Source of the DNA: Loktanella sp. PT4BL
GTDB lineage: Bacteria > Pseudomonadota > Alphaproteobacteria > Rhodobacterales > Rhodobacteraceae
Assembly (NCBI RefSeq): GCF_003201935.1
Contig: NZ_QJJL01000001.1
Span: forward strand, 124,001-188,000
DNA: 64,000 nt
Direction: 5' to 3'
The translations under genes were made by a program, and so were the position numbers. The notes under the pieces are model-generated. The model was not told the origin of the DNA, made no database searches, and saw only the letters and a program-made list of their open reading frames with translations. Position 1 is the first letter of the stretch, and each line of letters opens with the position of its first letter. Below are positions 55,598 to 64,000 of this stretch, in pieces.

Positions 55598-56785
55598 GTG
55601 GTTGTCCCTCTTTCTTCGCCACGCGTGACGGACATCACGCAGCGTGCCCAGAGCATCCTGCAGCACCTTATCGGCTTTCCCACGATCTCGGCCGACAGCA
55701 ATCTGGCGATGATTTCGTGGATGGCGGAGCATATGGAACGTCAGGGCGCGCGCGTTTTTCTGGATCATGATGATACCGGCAGCAAAGCGAACCTCTTTGC
55801 GACGCTTGGGCCGGACGCGCGTGGCGGTATCCTGTTATCTGGTCATACCGATGTGGTCCCTGTCGCAGATCAGGACTGGGCCACGGACCCGTTCGCCTTG
55901 CACGAAGGTGACGGCCGCCTTTACGGGCGCGGTACCTGCGACATGAAGGGGTTTATCGCGGCCACGCTGGCCATTGCGGAAACTGTTGATGCAGACAAGC
56001 TGACGCGTCCGCTCCACTTCGCCTTTACCTATGACGAGGAAACCGGTTGTCTGGGCGCGCAATCGCTTGTCGGTGTCATGCGCGATCTTGGTTTGGTGCC
56101 TGACATTACGATCATCGGCGAACCCACAGAAATGCGGGTGATCGAGGGGCATAAAGGCTGCTGCGAATACACGGCGCATTTCACAGGGCTTGAGGGCCAC
56201 GGTTCCGCCCCTGATCTGGGTGTAAATGCGGCCGAATATGCTGTGCGCTATGTCACGCGGCTGATGGAGTTGCGCGAGGACCTGATTGCGCGCGCACCAG
56301 CGGACAGCAAGTTCGAGCCGCCTTGGACAACGATCAATGTTGGCCGTATTTCGGGCGGCGTGGCCCATAACGTGATCGCCGGCAAAGCCGAGGTTGAATG
56401 GGAAATGCGGCCCGTGCAGAACAGCGACGCCGATTTCGTCAAATCCAGCATGGCCCGCTATTGCGCGGATACCTTACTGCCCGCCATGCAGGCTGTCAGC
56501 CCTGACGCCAGCATCACCCTGACCACTGTGGGCGAAATCGCGGGACTTGAGCCGATGGCCGTGAACGCCGCGCGCGAATTGGTCGCCGAACTGACAGGCG
56601 CGAACGGCGCCGATCTGGTGGCTTTTGGCACCGAGGCAGGGCTTTTTCAGGCGCTGGGCAGCCATGTGGTGGTCTGCGGTCCCGGTTCAATCCAGCAGGC
56701 CCATAAGCCTGATGAATACCTTGAGATTGACCAGTTGGACGCCTGTATGAGCATGCTCTCGCGACTGGTGCGTTATATATCTTAG
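55598..56785 (+). CDS. ArgE-type N-acyl amino acid deacetylase (M20 family)
   Basis: This is a 395-residue zinc amidohydrolase of the ArgE/DapE family. Its metal-binding motif GHTDVVPVADQDW and the YGRGTCDMKGFIA segment lie near residues 88-130, with the catalytic glutamate in DEETGCLGAQ. GHGSAPDLGVNAAE is the dimerisation region. Acetylornithine is the classical substrate. Its place after a DoeA-like gene suggests instead deacylation of an N-acyl diamino acid released by that hydrolase. The start is GTG 55598. The stop overlaps that of the convergent DUF1989 gene. Confidence 0.87.
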   Translation: MVVPLSSPRVTDITQRAQSILQHLIGFPTISADSNLAMISWMAEHMERQGARVFLDHDDTGSKANLFATLGPDARGGILLSGHTDVVPVADQDWATDPFALHEGDGRLYGRGTCDMKGFIAATLAIAETVDADKLTRPLHFAFTYDEETGCLGAQSLVGVMRDLGLVPDITIIGEPTEMRVIEGHKGCCEYTAHFTGLEGHGSAPDLGVNAAEYAVRYVTRLMELREDLIARAPADSKFEPPWTTINVGRISGGVAHNVIAGKAEVEWEMRPVQNSDADFVKSSMARYCADTLLPAMQAVSPDASITLTTVGEIAGLEPMAVNAARELVAELTGANGADLVAFGTEAGLFQALGSHVVVCGPGSIQQAHKPDEYLEIDQLDACMSMLSRLVRYIS

Positions 56786-57633
56786 CGCCCGTGACTGCGG
56801 TCGTAGGCGTTAGGCGCCGGTGATGTGAAGGGGTCTGCACTTTCAAAGACATCAATCACCAGCGGATAGCACGCGGCCTTGTCCGAGGTATGCTCGTCCC
56901 CGCAATCACCGCCCGGGCAGGCAGAGAGGCCGACGATCAGGTCAATCTCTGCAAAGAATTCCAGATAGTCGCCCTTCCGCACAGGACTGGCCTTCATAAA
57001 GTACTGATGCGTGTCGTTGGTGAAACCGGTGCACATAAAGACGTTCAGGACGTCGTGCACATAGGGCTCTGCCTCGGCCAGTGACATGCCTGTGTGGTCT
57101 GCCAGTGCGCGGGTCAGGTTGGAATGGCAACAGTAGTGATAGTCGGACCCCGACAACAACCGTCCGGTGTAGGGATCGCAGCGTGTGCCGATCACGTCAT
57201 GTACAGATCCGCCGTCGGCATCCCAACCGTACCAATCCAGCGTGTCCTCTGTGATGGTCGCCATCGGGCGCATGTTCGGAAAGCGCGACCAAAGCCTGTC
57301 GCCGGTGGACAGATGTGTGCCATGCAAGGCGCGCGTTTTGCCGGAATAGAAATGTTCGGTCAGGTCAGTGGCGGACCATAGGTTCAGATCGCCGACCTGC
57401 GCGCCGTCCGGGCATGTAATCCGAAAGAATCCGCCCGCAGGGACGGTCGTGCAGCGCGCGTCGCGGGGCGGGATCACGCAGGTGTCGCGATGGGTGGCGC
57501 TGGCACGGCGGGTCTGCATCGCCGCATGGTCCGGCGGTGCAAGCGCATCAGTCGGATAGCAGATCACCGCAGGCTTGGTGCGGCGGGCGTCGGCATCGCT
57601 TGGGCGCGTAAAGGCGGGCTGATCAGGTTTCAT
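56782..57633 (-). CDS. DUF1989 (urea carboxylase-associated family) protein
   Basis: This 283-residue protein belongs to DUF1989, known mainly from urea carboxylase/allophanate hydrolase neighbourhoods; no enzyme activity is established. It has IPPRDARCTTVPAGGFFRIT, GDLNLWSATDLTEHFYSGKT, DYHYCCHSNLTRAL and the C-terminal GDCGDEHTSDKAACYPLVID with several conserved cysteines and histidines. These could bind a metal. It is convergent with the argE-like gene and divergent from the PLP-enzyme gene. Urea released by creatinase could explain its presence. Confidence 0.85.
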   Translation of the reverse strand: MKPDQPAFTRPSDADARRTKPAVICYPTDALAPPDHAAMQTRRASATHRDTCVIPPRDARCTTVPAGGFFRITCPDGAQVGDLNLWSATDLTEHFYSGKTRALHGTHLSTGDRLWSRFPNMRPMATITEDTLDWYGWDADGGSVHDVIGTRCDPYTGRLLSGSDYHYCCHSNLTRALADHTGMSLAEAEPYVHDVLNVFMCTGFTNDTHQYFMKASPVRKGDYLEFFAEIDLIVGLSACPGGDCGDEHTSDKAACYPLVIDVFESADPFTSPAPNAYDRSHGR

Positions 57634-57784
57634 GGGTGCATACTCGTCTCAGGGGATGTCGGGCGGAACCGTAGCTTTGAATGGCGGTCAAAGACCAGAC
57701 CTCGGATTCTTGGTTCAGATTTGCTAAAAGCACCTGTGGCGGTCAGAGTAACCGTGACGCGGAATTCTGAGCAAAAGGTGTCCC

Positions 57785-58840
57785 ATGGCTGAAATCTACA
57801 AAAATACGGTGCGTGGACATGGTTTGGCCGATCCGGCACCAGGTGATGCTTTTGACACCGAGGCCGTCACCCGCTTGCTTGATCAATGCCCCGCCCATCA
57901 TGCGACACCTCTGTTGGATTGTGAGGGCCTTGCCCGCATCACTGGTGCTGCCCGCGTTGTTTTGAAGGACGAGCGCACGCGGATGGGGCTGGGTAGCTTC
58001 AAGGCGCTGGGCGCGGCCCATGTTATTGCCCGTGATGCGGCCGATGTGGTGCGCGATACGGGTGTTGATTGGTGCAACGCACTGAACGGGCGCAGCTATG
58101 TTGCTGCCAGCGCAGGCAATCACGGGCTTTCGCTTGCTGCAGGCGCGGCCGTTTTTGGTGCGCGTGCGGTGATTTACCTGGCCGATACCGTCCCCGAAGG
58201 TTTTGCCGCACGTTTGCGCGCGAAAGGCGCAGAGGTCGTGCGCGCCGGTGCCAACTACGAGGAAAGCATGGCGGCCGCGTCTGTTGCAGCCGAGGAAGGC
58301 GACTTGCAACTTCTTTCAGACGGGTCGTGGCCGGGTTACACCAGATTGCCGTTTCACGTGATGGAAGGTTACACCCAAATGGGCCTTGAAATAGCACAGG
58401 CCTATGAGGGCACGCCGACCCATGTATTCTTGCAGGCGGGTGTTGGCGGGTTGGCAGCAGCGCTGGCTGAGAGTCTGCGTGCATACTGGGGCGACGGGCC
58501 ACGCATGATTGTGGTTGAGCCCGAGGCAGCGCCTGCGCTGATCGCAAGCATGAAGGCGGAGGCCTTGGTCACCACCCAGGGCCCTGTCTCCAACATGGGG
58601 CGTTTGGACTGCAAGACGCCCTCAATGTTGGCGCTGGGCATTCTGGCACGTGATGCGGATGATTTTACGACCATCACGGAAGGTGAAGCAGAGGCAGCTG
58701 TGGCGGCTTTGGCGGAACAGGGCATTAGGACCACACCGTCGGGCGCTGCGGGCGTTGCGGCGGCTTTGGCTGGCGTGGGGGACATTGATAGCAGATCAAA
58801 CGTGCTCTGCATTATCAGCGAAGGCCCGGAGGACGGGTGA
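57785..58840 (+). CDS. PLP-dependent enzyme, diaminopropionate ammonia-lyase-like
   Basis: This is a 351-residue fold-type II PLP enzyme. The PLP lysine lies in RMGLGSFKALGAAHVIAR near residue 70. The ASAGNHGLSLAAGAAVFGAR segment and GVGGLAAALA glycine loop are typical of the family. It resembles DpaL/YgeX, which degrades 2,3-diaminopropionate to pyruvate and ammonia, though it is shorter than E. coli YgeX. The neighbouring ArgE-like gene recalls the ygeX-ygeY pairing in E. coli. An alternative is a related threonine-dehydratase-like (EutB) enzyme. Confidence 0.78.
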   Translation: MAEIYKNTVRGHGLADPAPGDAFDTEAVTRLLDQCPAHHATPLLDCEGLARITGAARVVLKDERTRMGLGSFKALGAAHVIARDAADVVRDTGVDWCNALNGRSYVAASAGNHGLSLAAGAAVFGARAVIYLADTVPEGFAARLRAKGAEVVRAGANYEESMAAASVAAEEGDLQLLSDGSWPGYTRLPFHVMEGYTQMGLEIAQAYEGTPTHVFLQAGVGGLAAALAESLRAYWGDGPRMIVVEPEAAPALIASMKAEALVTTQGPVSNMGRLDCKTPSMLALGILARDADDFTTITEGEAEAAVAALAEQGIRTTPSGAAGVAAALAGVGDIDSRSNVLCIISEGPEDG

Positions 58841-58862
58841 TCAACCGCGCGTGCGCGCTCTG

Positions 58863-59738
58863 TCAGTCACACTTGCCGCAAAGACACTTGTTCGGTGAGG
58901 GAAATATATCCTTCACCCAGCATTTCGCGGCTTTGATCGCCGGATCATTCTTGCGGGTTTCATAGAAGAGGAACCACATTTCACGGTCCACAAAGGTTTG
59001 CGCTTCATCTGAATGAACCTGACGTAGTTCCGGGAACGCGCGGGCCATACAGGTGGGCAGAACACAAGAAAGGCCGGTTGCTTGGGCGGTATTTGCAATC
59101 GCACGGTAGGAATCCATCCGTATGATCGGGCAGGTCCCGAAATATTGCCGCGCGAGTTGCATCTCTGGCAAGCCTTCAAGGCTTAGAGGCAGCCCAACCC
59201 ATCCGTTCTGATCACCGTCTTCGGACGCAAAAATCCCAACCCTGCAATTGGCCACCTTGAACCGCGCGACGCCCGGTGTGTCGGGACGCGAGAGCCGAAG
59301 TGCGACATCGGCCTCGCCGCGTTCGATTGCGGTTGTTTCGTCATTTGCCTCAATCATGATCTTGGCCTGCGGGAATTTTTCGCGCCAGAGGTTCATTGCG
59401 GGGGCAAGAAAATCGCTGTTGATAAAAGAGAGTGTGTTGATCTGCAGCGCGCCAAAGAAATTGTCGCTATTCTCGATATCCTTGAGCATGAAACCCAGAC
59501 TGGATTGCGTGGCTTCGGCGATCGCAACAAGCTCTTCGCCGATCTCGGTGAGTTCCCAACGATTGCCTGCAGGCAAAAAGATCGGATGACCGAGCTCTTC
59601 CGAGATCGTATCGACATGGCGTGCCACTGTACTGCTGGTCACGCCGAGAGATTGCGCAGCGGCACGATAAGAGCCAACCTCGGCGACCGTCAGTACGGTC
59701 TGCAATTGGCCCCAGGACTTGAACTTCCTTATATTCAT
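58863..59738 (-). CDS. LysR-family transcriptional regulator
   Basis: The 291-residue protein has an N-terminal winged helix-turn-helix (FKSWGQLQTVLTVAEVGSYR followed by AAAQSLGVTSSTVARHVDTI) and a C-terminal substrate-binding domain. ATG 59738 has GGAGTGAG upstream, and the open frame before it is not used. It converges with the DpaL-like gene and may regulate the nitrogen-catabolic genes. An unusual C-terminus ends CLCGKCD with three cysteines in seven residues, which might bind metal or sense redox. Confidence 0.88.
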   Translation of the reverse strand: MNIRKFKSWGQLQTVLTVAEVGSYRAAAQSLGVTSSTVARHVDTISEELGHPIFLPAGNRWELTEIGEELVAIAEATQSSLGFMLKDIENSDNFFGALQINTLSFINSDFLAPAMNLWREKFPQAKIMIEANDETTAIERGEADVALRLSRPDTPGVARFKVANCRVGIFASEDGDQNGWVGLPLSLEGLPEMQLARQYFGTCPIIRMDSYRAIANTAQATGLSCVLPTCMARAFPELRQVHSDEAQTFVDREMWFLFYETRKNDPAIKAAKCWVKDIFPSPNKCLCGKCD

Positions 59739-60080
59739 TATCTCACTCCGATCTGGTTCGGAACGAAACATTTTGCACCGTTCGGGAGATGGGTCGCTTG
59801 CAAACGGGCAAACTGCAAACGCTATGGGCCTATCCTTTGCGTCAAAAAGCGCGCTGTCAATCTGGCCTTTAGGGTGGAAACGCGCATTCAAAATGGCGGG
59901 GTGTCACTATTTTTGAGAGGGGGGCACGGATATTTCGCTATATTCGTGTTCGTTGCATTCGGTGTACCCGTCGTGCTGCCGCTCACGGCAGTTTGTCGGC
60001 AAAGTATCGACCGCTGGGCACTTATAAGCGCCCAATCGCCGGAGATCCTTTGCCGACAAAGCAATTTCTCTTCTCAAAAA
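59739..60080. other. Intergenic region between LysR gene and ggpS with a large inverted repeat
   Basis: This 342-bp interval has no convincing gene; open frames crossing it are not protein-like. It holds the LysR gene promoter on the right and, at 59992-60060, a large stem-loop listed separately, in the 3' region of ggpS. Confidence 0.5.
59992..60060. repeat. Perfect 13-bp inverted repeat with nested hairpin downstream of ggpS
   Basis: TTTGTCGGCAAAG (59992-60004) and CTTTGCCGACAAA (60048-60060) are exact complements, separated by 43 bp. The spacer can itself fold through TGGGC and GCCCA. It starts 20 bp beyond the ggpS stop codon. No T-run follows on either strand, so it looks more like an RNA stability structure or a protein site than a simple terminator. 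Confidence 0.7.
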
Positions 60081-61571
60081 CTAGGCTGCCGAAACGATCG
60101 CCGGCTTTGATTTCAGTTCAAGCGTGCCGGGGGTCCATTTGCGCACGTCTGTTTTCAGGACGGCGGCGCGCAGGTTCTCCATACGCATGCGGCGCTCTTG
60201 TTCCGGCATTTTCAGGGCGCTGACGATTGTCAGGTCCATCGCGCGGTTCGAGAACGGGTTTGTGATCACCGCATCGGCCAGTTCCACAGCGGCCCCTGCG
60301 AATTCGGACAGCACCAGCACACCGCTGTTGTCGATCCGAGATGCGATAAATTCCTTCGCCACCAGATTCATGCCGTCCGCCAGTGGCGTGATCCATGCGA
60401 CATCGGCGGCCTGATAGTATGAAATCAGCTGCGTGAACGGTACGGCGCGTGAAATCAGTGTGACAGGCTGCCATTCCAGTGTCCCGAAGCGGCCATTGAC
60501 CCGGCCTGCGATCTGCTCGATCTCGCTCTGAATTTCCTCATAAGCCTGCATATTGCGGTTGGCCGCGACCGATACATGCATCAGCCGGATTTTGCCCCGC
60601 AGGTCAGGGTTATATTCCAAAACACGCTCAAAGCTGGCCAGTTGCTCGATCCCGCCTTTGGTGTAGTCGGTGCGCCCGACCGAGAGGATCAGTTTCTCGT
60701 CACCGATTTCCTTTTTGATCTTCGCGGTTTGGGACACCGTTTCAGGGGCATGAGCAATCTCGTCGATATAGCCGATATCCACGCCCACAGGTGTCACGCT
60801 GACTGCCACCTCATGGCCATCAAGGTTCAGCTTGCTTGCCCATGCGCGTTCGGCCAGCGCAGTGCCCTCGAATATCCATTTGTCGGGGACTTGCGTCCGC
60901 GTTGTCACATCCACGTCGAACAGACTGGTGGCAACCGAGACAAAGTTGCTGGCGTAGCGCGGGATGTGAAAACCGATGTCATCACAGGCCAGCAGGCTGT
61001 TCACGATCTCCTTGCGCCAAGGCAGCATGTTAAAGATATCCGCCGATGGAAACGGCGTGTGGTGGAAGAACGCGATCCGCACGTCGGGGCGCATGGTGCG
61101 CAGATAGCCGGGCACAAGCCACAGGTTATAGTCATGCACCCAGACTAAAGCGCCTTCTGCTGCTTCTTCGGCGGCCGCTTCGGCGAAACGGCGGTTCACA
61201 TCCTGGAAATTCGCCCAATCGACAGGGTCGTAATTGTAGCGTTCCTTGAAACCGTGGAGGATCGGCCAGAACGCCTCTTTCGAGGTGACGTGATAGAATT
61301 CGCGCACCTGCTCTTCAGACAAAGCCAGTCGTGAGACAGCATAGCGGCCATAGTCGTCATCAATCTCGATCCGCTGCTCGAAATCGGGGTTGGCAGGGTC
61401 TTCGGCCAGTTTCCAAGCGATCCATGCACCGTGATCGACCTCACCAAAAAAGCTCTTCAGCGTGGGGACGATCCCGTTGGGGCTCTTGTTTTCGCGCAGC
61501 ACGATCTGCCCGTTTTCCTCGACCTCTTCATAGGGCTGGCGATGGTAGACGATAACCATTTCGGAAGACAT
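60081..61571 (-). CDS. ggpS: Glucosylglycerol-phosphate synthase
   Basis: GgpS joins ADP-glucose and sn-glycerol 3-phosphate to make glucosylglycerol phosphate, precursor of a salt-stress solute. This GT20-family protein is 496 residues. It matches cyanobacterial GgpS at VIVYHRQPYEEVEENGQIVL, ENKSPNGIVPTLKSFFG, FYHVTSKEAFWPILHGF, ALVWVHDYNLWLVPGYLR and FHHTPFPSADIFNMLPWRKE more closely than OtsA (trehalose-6-phosphate synthase). The operon partner gpsA, making its acceptor, and the HAD phosphatase support this reading. OtsA-type activity cannot be fully excluded. It lies 15 nt downstream of the phosphatase gene. Confidence 0.87.
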   Translation of the reverse strand: MSSEMVIVYHRQPYEEVEENGQIVLRENKSPNGIVPTLKSFFGEVDHGAWIAWKLAEDPANPDFEQRIEIDDDYGRYAVSRLALSEEQVREFYHVTSKEAFWPILHGFKERYNYDPVDWANFQDVNRRFAEAAAEEAAEGALVWVHDYNLWLVPGYLRTMRPDVRIAFFHHTPFPSADIFNMLPWRKEIVNSLLACDDIGFHIPRYASNFVSVATSLFDVDVTTRTQVPDKWIFEGTALAERAWASKLNLDGHEVAVSVTPVGVDIGYIDEIAHAPETVSQTAKIKKEIGDEKLILSVGRTDYTKGGIEQLASFERVLEYNPDLRGKIRLMHVSVAANRNMQAYEEIQSEIEQIAGRVNGRFGTLEWQPVTLISRAVPFTQLISYYQAADVAWITPLADGMNLVAKEFIASRIDNSGVLVLSEFAGAAVELADAVITNPFSNRAMDLTIVSALKMPEQERRMRMENLRAAVLKTDVRKWTPGTLELKSKPAIVSAA

Positions 61572-61586
61572 GTGATGCTCCTTTCT

Positions 61587-62360
61587 CTACGCGGCAAACA
61601 GGTTGTGGTGCAAAATCGCTTCGGCGATGCCTGCGGCACCCTCCGCTTCTGCGGCGTAGCAATGCGCAAGGTCCTTAATCTCGTCAATCAGGGACGGCTC
61701 CGATCCCCCAACCGCGACGGCAGGCAGGCCCATTTTCAGCATGGACAGATCATTCATCGTATCGCCTGCCACCAGAACGCGCCGGTTGTCGATGTTCAGG
61801 TGCGTCAACAGGCGCAAAAGCGATGGCCCTTTGCTGACGCCCTTAGGCAGCACGTCAAAGAAGCGGTTATCCGACACGATGGTATCAAGACCAAGTTCGG
61901 CAATTGCATCAATCGCAGCTTCATCGAATTTGGCAGGGTCCATGTCATAGCTGAGCCGGTAGCGGAACAGCGTTGACTGGAGCCTCAGACCGCGTGTGCC
62001 ATTCAGGGTAAACCGCGCTTTGGTGCCCGCGTCGCCCCATGCGGCGGCGATCTCGGCTTCCAGTTCGGCAATCGGGGACACCAGATTGTTGTGATCCATC
62101 GTTGCAATCGTGGTGCCGACATCGGCGATCACATAATCTGGGCGCGGCACGTCCCCTTTGCGGGTGATGTCATGGATGAACCCCGGATCGCGCCCTGTCA
62201 CAAAGATCAATCCGACATGCGCGCGATTGGCCGCAATCCAGTTATAGAGGCCCGCGCGCTGGTCGTCAGACCCGCCGAGGAATGTTCCATCAAGATCGGT
62301 GGCGAGGACAAATTTCTTGTCTGCGATGTCGGTTGTGTGGAATTTCTCGTGACGGGTCAT
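61587..62360 (-). CDS. HAD-superfamily phosphatase, probable glucosylglycerol-3-phosphatase
   Basis: The 257-residue protein is a HAD subfamily IIB (sucrose-phosphatase-like) enzyme. It has motif I DLDGTFLGGSDD with the nucleophile aspartate near residue 22, motif II FVTGRDPGF, and motif IV VAGDTMNDLSML. Between gpsA and ggpS it most likely dephosphorylates glucosylglycerol phosphate. Cyanobacteria use an unrelated-looking GgpP/StpA, and some gammaproteobacteria fuse a HAD domain to GgpS, so a separate HAD gene fits as an unfused version. It overlaps gpsA by 4 nt. Confidence 0.85.
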   Translation of the reverse strand: MTRHEKFHTTDIADKKFVLATDLDGTFLGGSDDQRAGLYNWIAANRAHVGLIFVTGRDPGFIHDITRKGDVPRPDYVIADVGTTIATMDHNNLVSPIAELEAEIAAAWGDAGTKARFTLNGTRGLRLQSTLFRYRLSYDMDPAKFDEAAIDAIAELGLDTIVSDNRFFDVLPKGVSKGPSLLRLLTHLNIDNRRVLVAGDTMNDLSMLKMGLPAVAVGGSEPSLIDEIKDLAHCYAAEAEGAAGIAEAILHHNLFAA

Positions 62361-63499
62361 GAGATCCTTTCTGCAAGCGTTGCAATATCTTTGTCAGTTG
62401 CGGGGTGGTTGAATGAGAGGTCCATCGTGCGCGGCTCTGCCTCGATCGGGCGGGCCCACAGGTTTGCGAAGGCGGTGCCAAGGTCTGCGCCGTCGTGCAG
62501 GATAGACCGCACGGTTTCGCAGATTGGCATGGCCACGTTCACGCTGCGCGCAAGGTCGGTGACCGATTTCGCGTTGATCTCGCCTTCGACAACGACAGGG
62601 CGGCCCTCAAAGCAGTCGCCGCGCGGGATGCCCTGCCCCAGTTGCAGGCCAAGTGCCATGTTGCGCGAAGTGGGGCTGGAACATGTCAGCGACAAATCCC
62701 CGATCCCCGATAATCCGGTCACGGTTTCACGTCGTCCGCCCAGGGCTTCGGCCAGCGCCTTCATTTCATCGAGTCCGCGGGTAATCAGTGCCGCACGGGT
62801 GTTTTCGGCAAAGCCTGCGCCGGTCATCAGCCCGCAGGCGATGGCAATAATATTTTTCACCGCACCGCCGATTTCCACGCCGACCAGATCGTCCGAGACA
62901 TAGGACCGGAAGCTTTCGGTCGAAAGTGACAGGGCAAGGCGAACCGCGGGGCTTTCATGCGGGCGCAACCTGTCACCATAAGTAAACGGAAAGGCGACGG
63001 TGGCGGCTGTGGGGTGCCCGAGGGCTGTTTCCAGCGCAAAGGTCGGACCAGAGACGCAACCGACGCAGCGCCCGCCCAGTTCCTCTTCGGCGACCTGTGT
63101 CATCAACAGGCCAGTTTCGGCTTCGATCCCTTTGGCGCAAACGGCGACAGGCGTATCTTTCGGCGCGTGCTCGGCCACTTGGCGGGCCACGCTGCGCACA
63201 CTGCGCGACGGGACAACCACAAGCACAGCTTCCGCCTGTTCCAAGGCTTTGGGCATATCCGTTGTGCCGCGCAAACCTTCGGGTAGCGCTACACCCGGCA
63301 AAAAGCGTTCGGTCGTGCCCTTTGTGTTGATTTCATCAATGATGGCGGGGTCACGGCCACAGATCGTCGTGGCGCATCCGGCGCGCGCCAGAACCACCGC
63401 AAGGGCTGTGCCCCAAGACCCTGCCCCAACAACGGCGACCTTTTTATAGGGTAGCGCAACCGGTTGAAATGGTTGTCCCGTCGTAGCGTGATCTTTCAT
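62357..63499 (-). CDS. gpsA: Glycerol-3-phosphate dehydrogenase [NAD(P)+]
   Basis: GpsA reduces dihydroxyacetone phosphate to sn-glycerol 3-phosphate. The 380-residue product is slightly long for the family because of a tail at both ends. It has the NAD fold VVGAGSWGTALAVVLARAG near residue 25, the conserved GGAVKNIIAIACGL with the catalytic lysine, and NTRAALITRGLDEM. ATG 63499 has AGAGGT upstream. In this operon it would supply the glycerol 3-phosphate acceptor for GgpS; whether it is also the cell's only GpsA for lipid synthesis cannot be told. Confidence 0.92.
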   Translation of the reverse strand: MKDHATTGQPFQPVALPYKKVAVVGAGSWGTALAVVLARAGCATTICGRDPAIIDEINTKGTTERFLPGVALPEGLRGTTDMPKALEQAEAVLVVVPSRSVRSVARQVAEHAPKDTPVAVCAKGIEAETGLLMTQVAEEELGGRCVGCVSGPTFALETALGHPTAATVAFPFTYGDRLRPHESPAVRLALSLSTESFRSYVSDDLVGVEIGGAVKNIIAIACGLMTGAGFAENTRAALITRGLDEMKALAEALGGRRETVTGLSGIGDLSLTCSSPTSRNMALGLQLGQGIPRGDCFEGRPVVVEGEINAKSVTDLARSVNVAMPICETVRSILHDGADLGTAFANLWARPIEAEPRTMDLSFNHPATDKDIATLAERIS

Positions 63500-63845
63500 T
63501 GGTGACCTCTGAAGTTGAAAGCGAATTGCGGACGCAGCCATATCTGGCCGCGTGCATCGAAGACCGGATGAACCGGCATTTATGTCGCTTACGTTACAGT
63601 CATGTCGTTTATGGTGGCTTTTGAGGGCCAAAAGTCAATGCTGCGGGTGCAAAATAGCCAAAACCTTTGGAATTCCTCAAAGAAATGCGTGTCTCTTGCC
63701 TAGTAAACACCCGCCAAACCGACAAACGCATTAAAGTTTAGGCAGAGAATGATTTAATAACGACATATCATTGTCGTTTTTTGACATTTTCTGCAGTTGC
63801 AGCATTTATGTAGGGCACCCGTATTTGTGAAAGGATACCTACATC
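63500..63845. promoter_or_regulatory. Divergent control region gpsA-operon / galU
   Basis: This 346-bp interval has no supported gene. It contains a TTGACA -35 hexamer at 63781-63786 with an ATTTAT -10 at 63804-63809 (17-bp spacing) for galU, an inverted repeat at 63759-63778, and two direct TGTCGYTTA repeats at 63583 and 63603 nearer gpsA. The region is AT-rich compared with the flanking genes. Confidence 0.6.
63759..63778. promoter_or_regulatory. Inverted repeat at the galU promoter
   Basis: AACGACA and TGTCGTT flank a 6-bp centre and end two bases before the predicted -35 of galU. The arm sequence TGTCGTT also occurs, as TGTCG(C/T)TTA, at 63583 and 63603. A regulator shared by galU and the gpsA-ggpS operon is a plausible reading. 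Confidence 0.5.
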
Positions 63846-64000
63846 ATGACCAAGTCACCTGTTCGTACTGCCATCTTTCCCGTTGCCGGATTGGGGACAC
63901 GGTTCTTGCCTGCCACCAAGGCGACACCCAAGGAACTGCTGCCGGTGCTGGACACGCCATTGATCCAATATGCGATTGACGAGGCACGTGATGCGGGTAT
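63846..64000 (+). CDS. galU: UTP-glucose-1-phosphate uridylyltransferase (5' part)
   Basis: GalU makes UDP-glucose from UTP and glucose 1-phosphate. Only the first 51 codons are in the window. The nucleotidyltransferase signature [18 protein letters not shown] is followed by [25 protein letters not shown] precedes the ATG, and a good promoter lies about 40 bp upstream. Its product feeds Ugd, encoded 16 kb away. Confidence 0.95.

Follow-up and report, generated by a model that had tools for sequence, protein, structure and literature searches.

A window of 64,000 nucleotides from Loktanella sp. PT4BL (RefSeq assembly GCF_003201935.1, contig NZ_QJJL01000001.1, positions 124,001 to 188,000 of the forward strand) was found to encode a three-gene unit, gpsA2-HAD-ggpS, that we read, with a probability of roughly 0.87, as an operon for the osmolyte alpha-glucosylglycerol with uridine diphosphate glucose (UDP-glucose) as the more likely glucose donor. 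Glucosylglycerol is usually described as a solute of cyanobacteria and of a few heterotrophs with a fused enzyme. "The window" denotes the whole of this stretch, in which the relevant features are located as follows.

62357..63499, minus strand: gpsA2, predicted NAD(P)H-dependent glycerol-3-phosphate dehydrogenase, operon-type paralogue; 380 amino acids (aa) counted from the ATG
61587..62360, minus strand: HAD-IIB phosphatase of the S6PP type, presumed glucosylglycerol-phosphate phosphatase; 257 aa
60081..61571, minus strand: ggpS, predicted GT20 glucosylglycerol-phosphate synthase; 496 aa
63582..63607, minus strand: operator-like element CGACAT-N14-CGACAT, 82 base pairs (bp) before the gpsA ATG; conserved
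63633..63638, minus strand: TTGACT, putative -35 hexamer at a conserved position 31 bp upstream of the element
63846..64000, plus strand: start of galU2, divergent from gpsA; 297 aa, continuing past the window to about 64739

In the proposed pathway, GpsA2 would convert dihydroxyacetone phosphate to glycerol 3-phosphate, GgpS would transfer glucose from a nucleotide-glucose to this acceptor, and the HAD protein would remove the phosphate to give free glucosylglycerol, which would accumulate under salt stress and protect the cells. The three genes would be co-transcribed from a promoter before gpsA2 with a conserved two-site element of its own, and the divergent galU2 would supply UDP-glucose, so that the region would provide both precursors. 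An earlier note on this DNA had placed a HAD-IIB phosphatase and gpsA ahead of ggpS, and all three genes were indeed found there on the minus strand. The same note had described one overlapping operon; a 4-bp ATGA overlap joins gpsA and the HAD gene, and the overlap is confined to this junction, as the HAD gene and ggpS are separated by a 15-bp gap. Its account of the contents of the operon was correct, but both galU2, at the edge of the window, and the conserved element ahead of gpsA had escaped it. The host genome (36 contigs, 99.98% complete) contains two Photo_RC genes for the photosynthetic reaction centre (C6:73218-74882) and is by gene content that of an anoxygenic phototroph; ggpS is its sole GT20 gene. 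Among the matches listed, the nearest named relative is Loktanella sp. 5RATIMAR09, whose GgpS is 97% identical.

Assignment of the synthase and the phosphatase

The GT20 protein matched the model for glucosylglycerol-phosphate synthase (TIGR02398) with 666.8 bits, above the curated equivalog cut-off of 569, and matched the OtsA model (TIGR02400) with 412.5 bits, under the cut-off of 564.85. In a tree of 57 GT20 rows, 38 GgpS rows separated from 19 OtsA-like rows with a support of 100, and the window protein fell on the GgpS side; the tree was built with a quick method, long branches were flagged, a length filter had removed 12 of the 31 OtsA-like candidates, and no cyanobacterial row was included. 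Judged by these sequence comparisons the protein is GgpS and not OtsA, as the earlier note had held and as the phylogeny it had proposed against GgpS and OtsA sets confirmed. Within the GgpS part of the tree, the five fused proteins, none of them from the class, formed one group (support 98) and the other 33 rows a second (support 99). The second group consists of 32 alphaproteobacterial proteins plus L158, an unfused protein that is likewise not from the class and whose locus has its HAD match split across two frames.

The HAD protein matched the S6PP family (PF05116) with 139.5 bits against a cut-off of 20.3. Outside the class, five loci (L152-L156) encode HAD-GgpS proteins in a single frame; their HAD part shares 34-40% identity with the window HAD and their GgpS part 45-48% with the window GgpS, and the GgpS match of L156 contains one stop. 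Residues D22, D24, G56-R57, K177, D200, N203 and D204 are invariant in 18 chosen HADs, fused and unfused, and include those that we take to be the HAD motif residues (D22, D24, K177, D200, N203 and D204). The kinship with the phosphatase part of the fused proteins that had been suggested earlier is thus borne out by identity and motifs, and by sequence the HAD belongs with that part and is likely a glucosylglycerol-phosphate phosphatase. The further proposal that it differs from the cyanobacterial phosphatase agrees with the lack of any match of the HAD protein at an E value of 1e-5 to TIGR02399, which we take to be the model of the cyanobacterial glucosylglycerol 3-phosphatase. TIGR02399 matched in none of the 52 ggpS genomes described below, but no control genome matched either, so this absence is weakly shown.

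A separate GpsA paralogue in the operon

GpsA2 matched the N- and C-terminal NAD_Gly3P_dh domains (PF01210, 154.5 bits; PF07479, 152.4 bits), both over the cut-off, and the host genome holds a second gpsA whose product is 36% identical to the operon copy. In a tree of GpsA proteins chosen from the sequences collected in this analysis, 30 operon proteins split from 20 housekeeping proteins with a support of 100, and because of this split the operon GpsA is regarded, on the strength of the sequences, as an old, separate paralogue of the housekeeping enzyme. The role of gpsA as acceptor supplier, as put forward in the earlier note, is consistent with such a second, operon-type copy in a clade of its own.

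The copies of gpsA were then counted in 80 genomes, the 52 ggpS carriers of the family and 28 genomes without intact ggpS, the latter hand-picked mostly for completeness. Two copies were present in 34 of the 52 carriers and one in the other 18, the single copy being that of the operon in 11, a copy elsewhere in 6, and undecided in G233 owing to contig ends. Of the 28 genomes without intact ggpS, 26 have one gpsA, G020 has none, and G047 has one intact gene plus pieces; a second intact copy was found in 0 of the 28. As the operon copy is the sole gpsA found in 11 of the 52 ggpS genomes, the operon GpsA can probably take over the housekeeping role. These genomes, in which both copies were kept, the housekeeping copy was lost, or the operon copy was lost, offer a natural test of acceptor supply. 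A decaying operon was also observed in G047 (L212, G047:C16:157700-162000), where gpsA and ggpS fragments flank a single HAD match that runs unbroken over 250 aa at 60% (the continuity is that of the match, the frame not having been checked for stops).

Distribution and conservation of the locus

Searching with TIGR02398 resulted in matches over the cut-off in 52 of 295 family genomes, 14 of 385 genomes of a class sample and 12 of 398 genomes of a phylum sample; the three samples overlap, and each includes the host genome. When 29 other loci of the family were fetched, the HAD gene adjoined ggpS in 28 and gpsA adjoined the HAD gene in 27, with locus L019 ending at a contig edge. Of 13 loci from other alphaproteobacterial families, L052 came without flank, and among the remaining 12 the HAD gene was present in 12 and gpsA in 11. 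A search of named genome contigs found 477 stretches with relatives, from which the best 80 loci were kept; some of these are cut short, which makes the linkage counts lower bounds. The HAD gene is next upstream of ggpS in all 80 and gpsA lies upstream of the HAD gene in 72, while in 2 of the 8 loci without gpsA (L091 and L124) the contig ends there. Such conservation of the order gpsA-HAD-ggpS is far beyond chance.

The operon also occurs outside the Rhodobacterales, in Hoeflea and Cohaesibacter, and annotated ggpS genes are plasmid-borne in Dinoroseobacter shibae and Falsirhodobacter algicola; G294, from the window's own genus, gave no TIGR02398 match. The earlier description of a distinct unfused arrangement in an anoxygenic phototroph therefore holds for the unfused genes and the phototroph gene content, and falls for the idea that the arrangement is special to this phototroph, since it is a common alphaproteobacterial one. 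When neighbouring frames of 110 aa or more in the 80 loci were clustered, no other gene family was found at a fixed place in the 45 largest clusters; genes for glucosylglycerol degradation or transport were not searched by model. Leaving aside HAD, ggpS, gpsA and GalU as well as antisense or shadow frames, ABC-transporter ATPases form the largest cluster (29 loci, either strand); we read these as members of a large superfamily.

Gene content and the sugar donor

A gene of a second GalU type, galU2 (L002:8846-9739), starts 346 bp from gpsA on the opposite strand. Its product aligned over positions 1-261 of 261 of the GalU model TIGR01099 with 266.8 bits, below the cut-off of 326.8, and was assigned by sequence as a second-type relative of GalU (UTP-glucose-1-phosphate uridylyltransferase) that may form UDP-glucose. 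The canonical-type GalU gene of the host is at C1:28330. Linkage of galU2 to ggpS was found in at least 36 of the 80 named loci, a count that excludes L104 (30% identical and on a very long branch; 37 with it); galU2 is upstream and divergent in 34 of the 36 and 3' of ggpS in L094 and L097. Among the family carriers, it adjoins the operon in at least 15 of 52. The GalU tree was built with a quick method, its split had a support of 82-85, and L149 formed a further odd long branch. A third GalU-like gene of the host (G000:C4:164013-164807, L197) is placed close to the galU2 group, with a long branch. In G006, a genome with no ggpS over the cut-off, a GalU2-like gene was noted about 1 kb from an OtsA-type gene (G006:C54:79408-82324).

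Genes for adenosine diphosphate glucose (ADP-glucose) and glycogen metabolism are unevenly distributed among the 52 carriers: 38 have glgC over the cut-off, and 39 have glgA over its own. In G150, glgA is present and the glgC-like match is partial (262 bits). In a quarter of the family carriers (13 of 52, each at least 98% complete, D. shibae, G035, included), neither glgC nor glgA was over the cut-off. These 13 genomes, with D. shibae among them, speak for UDP-glucose as donor, and the ADP-glucose taken for granted in the assay proposed in the earlier note is not what the gene content points to. In a tree of 30 GgpS proteins, the 10 from genomes lacking glgC and glgA were scattered; their placement takes 7 changes, of which branches with good support require at least 4. 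GgpS proteins from these and from other genomes have a similar donor-site loop. Because of this scatter and the shared loop, we infer one donor for the whole GgpS group, and on gene content we lean towards UDP-glucose over ADP-glucose as that donor. The loop itself does not discriminate the donor; it resembles both the UDP-forming trehalose-phosphate synthase 5huv and the OtsA 5jij, presumably a yeast and a mycobacterial enzyme, respectively. The residues described as contacting the base in E. coli OtsA (PMC5247666) appear, by alignment, not to be conserved in GgpS. The same paper reports that mycobacterial OtsA prefers ADP-glucose and argues the donor of Streptomyces OtsA likewise from a missing glgC (PMC5247666).

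Weighing of alternative readings

An OtsA-type trehalose-6-phosphate synthase (the GT20 protein) acting with an OtsB-like phosphatase (the HAD) might be suspected from the GT20 family itself and from the 23 solved-structure sequences matched at 1e-10, which are labelled trehalose-phosphate synthases or phosphatase, together with VldE-type relatives, and none of which is a GgpS. This reading was rejected, as the OtsA cut-offs were failed and the GgpS cut-off passed, the protein stands outside the OtsA-like rows on the GgpS side of the tree at a support of 100, the HAD is of the S6PP type, and trehalose synthesis has no place for gpsA; we consider it extremely improbable. Coincidence is a somewhat less remote, still improbable, explanation for gpsA, which would then be the phospholipid gene of the cell standing in front of ggpS by chance; the 11 genomes with the operon copy as sole gpsA would fit, but the host has another gpsA, the operon copies form their own clade, and their position is kept in 72 of the 80 loci. 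It is also very unlikely that the synthase uses another three-carbon acceptor, such as 3-phosphoglycerate, to make glucosylglycerate, as the operon gpsA points to glycerol 3-phosphate and the protein lies within the GgpS equivalog. To our knowledge, the known glucosylglycerate synthases are members of other families. What speaks for this acceptor is the report that D. shibae uses alpha-glucosylglycerate besides alpha-glucosylglycerol (PMC9062515, citing Kleist 2017).

The same pathway could also run on ADP-glucose from GlgC as in cyanobacteria, with galU2 serving, for example, exopolysaccharide synthesis. This is a serious, if rather doubtful, possibility, and the evidence for it also counts against UDP-glucose: the Synechocystis GgpS needs ADP-glucose and not UDP-glucose (PMC6004087), and glgC is over the cut-off in 38 of the 52 ggpS genomes overall and, with glgA, in the host, where ADP-glucose should be available. 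Set against it are the 13 genomes without glgC and glgA over the cut-off, in which other ADP-glucose sources such as sucrose synthase were not searched; D. shibae, one of these 13, is nonetheless reported to use glucosylglycerol (PMC9062515), and galU2 is linked to the operon in 36 of the 80 loci.

Several further observations weigh against a glucosylglycerol operon fed by UDP-glucose. The case for Loktanella sp. PT4BL is built from genes; a canonical GalU is present besides galU2; galU2 was not seen near ggpS in 44 of the 80 loci, some of them cut short; GalU2-like genes also occur in G188 and G006, both without ggpS; and among the 73 upstream regions described below, most of those from lineages other than the window's do not carry the upstream element. 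Having weighed these points, we retain the glucosylglycerol operon with UDP-glucose as the more likely donor. In a broader model, for which we consider the odds to be even, the alphaproteobacterial unit would be a self-contained glucosylglycerol module with UDP-glucose as donor, its own GpsA, often a divergent GalU2 and, in the window's lineage, a dedicated regulator reading CGACAT-N14-CGACAT, uncoupled from glycogen and persisting without glgC and glgA.

A conserved element upstream of gpsA

The element reads CGACATGACTGT-N3-GTAAGCGACAT (window 63607-63582). The pattern was taken from the window and D. shibae, and full agreement with it was also found in the Loktanella locus L069. An upstream region was obtained for 73 of 83 loci, and 20 of these 73 contained a match with at most 7 mismatches in 23 positions, compared with 3 of 1460 mononucleotide shuffles. 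When the element sites were used to build a weight matrix, it found one site in the 64-kb window, at 43.2 bits, and 1, 1 and 0 sites in shuffled windows (threshold 8); sites used to build the matrix score high by construction. Over 82 loci, all 21 sites scoring at least 24.5 precede gpsA, and 9 weaker sites (10.6-17.0) are located there or elsewhere. TTGAC stands at -31 or -30 from the element in 14 of 23 rows, with TTGA-type letters in most others, and because of this spacing the element probably lies close to the start of transcription, a position at which a repressor would act. A generic sigma-70 promoter scan found 0 promoters (shuffled mean 2.0) and did not pick up TTGACT, so the promoter is a predicted one. 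The terminator scan found 3 candidates compared with a shuffled mean of 4.6, and Rfam gave no match within L002:3000-12000. On the galU2 side, TGTC-N6-CGACA was found in 9 of the 73 regions, or in 10 when every spacing tried is counted, against a mean of 1.3 and a maximum of 4 in shuffles.

Because genes for a sigma factor and NepR are found 3-4 kb from the operon in D. shibae, control by the general-stress sigma factor EcfG was considered. With a pattern based on what we take to be the EcfG consensus, 7 of the 73 upstream regions matched (shuffled mean 0.66), or 13 with a looser version (shuffled mean 1.85). The strict pattern was found in neither the window nor the D. shibae upstream region, and an EcfG promoter was therefore not adopted for the window operon. 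The seven matching loci (L102, L109, L110, L115, L129, L139 and L147) carry the pattern before gpsA and are without the CGACAT element, and lineages other than the window's may be under general-stress control. The neighbourhood on the D. shibae plasmid pDSHI02 (L174:13709-15400) encodes a sigma factor, a NepR anti-sigma factor and a response regulator.

Comparison with known systems

The unit corresponds to neither the cyanobacterial nor the fused arrangement; the pathway is known and the arrangement is a variant of it. The cyanobacterial ggpS and ggpP (Synechocystis sll1566 and slr0746) serve the same two-step chemistry with a GT20 synthase of the same equivalog model, but the two genes stand separately, and the phosphatase falls under a different model, presumably TIGR02399. 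In Synechocystis the synthase takes ADP-glucose rather than UDP-glucose (PMC6004087), whereas gene content across the ggpS carriers points to UDP-glucose. A gpsA near ggpS has a cyanobacterial precedent, being named in a figure legend on ggpS/gghA neighbourhoods (PMC6753628). Fused GgpPS proteins are reported from Stenotrophomonas, Pseudomonas, Azotobacter and Marinobacter (PMC10873239), and loci L152-L156, with homologous HAD and GgpS in one open frame, fit these published fusions. A fusion is one polypeptide, whereas a stop codon and the 15-bp gap divide the Loktanella unit into two genes, and the GgpS clades are separate. In Marinobacter a glucosylglycerol phosphorylase gene follows ggpPS (PMC10873239); behind ggpS in the loci compared here, no family recurs at a fixed place. 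A further parallel is D. shibae pDSHI02 (DSHI_RS19325-19335), with the same three-gene order, a GgpS 72% identical and the same upstream element; it differs in that the operon is on a plasmid, no GalU is among the annotated neighbours, and the genome is without glgC and glgA over the cut-off. In the excerpts of a solute genome survey of phototrophic bacteria, glucosylglycerol is mentioned in general and for cyanobacteria only (PMC7824335). No description of the alphaproteobacterial operon appeared among the top-ranked literature results, and an earlier description is possible.

By gene content, this third arrangement of glucosylglycerol genes is widespread in Rhodobacterales and other alphaproteobacteria. 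New here are the separate operon GpsA paralogue, the linked second GalU type, the 13 of 52 ggpS genomes without glgC and glgA, and the conserved element before gpsA. If the donor is UDP-glucose, the pathway would be independent of glycogen metabolism, models of osmolyte carbon flow would change, and the synthase would be usable in hosts without ADP-glucose. Beside the operon, window positions 55598-59891 encode an ArgE-like deacetylase (plus strand), a DUF1989 protein (minus strand), a diaminopropionate-ammonia-lyase-like pyridoxal phosphate enzyme (plus strand) and a LysR regulator (minus strand), which together look like an amino-acid catabolic cluster.

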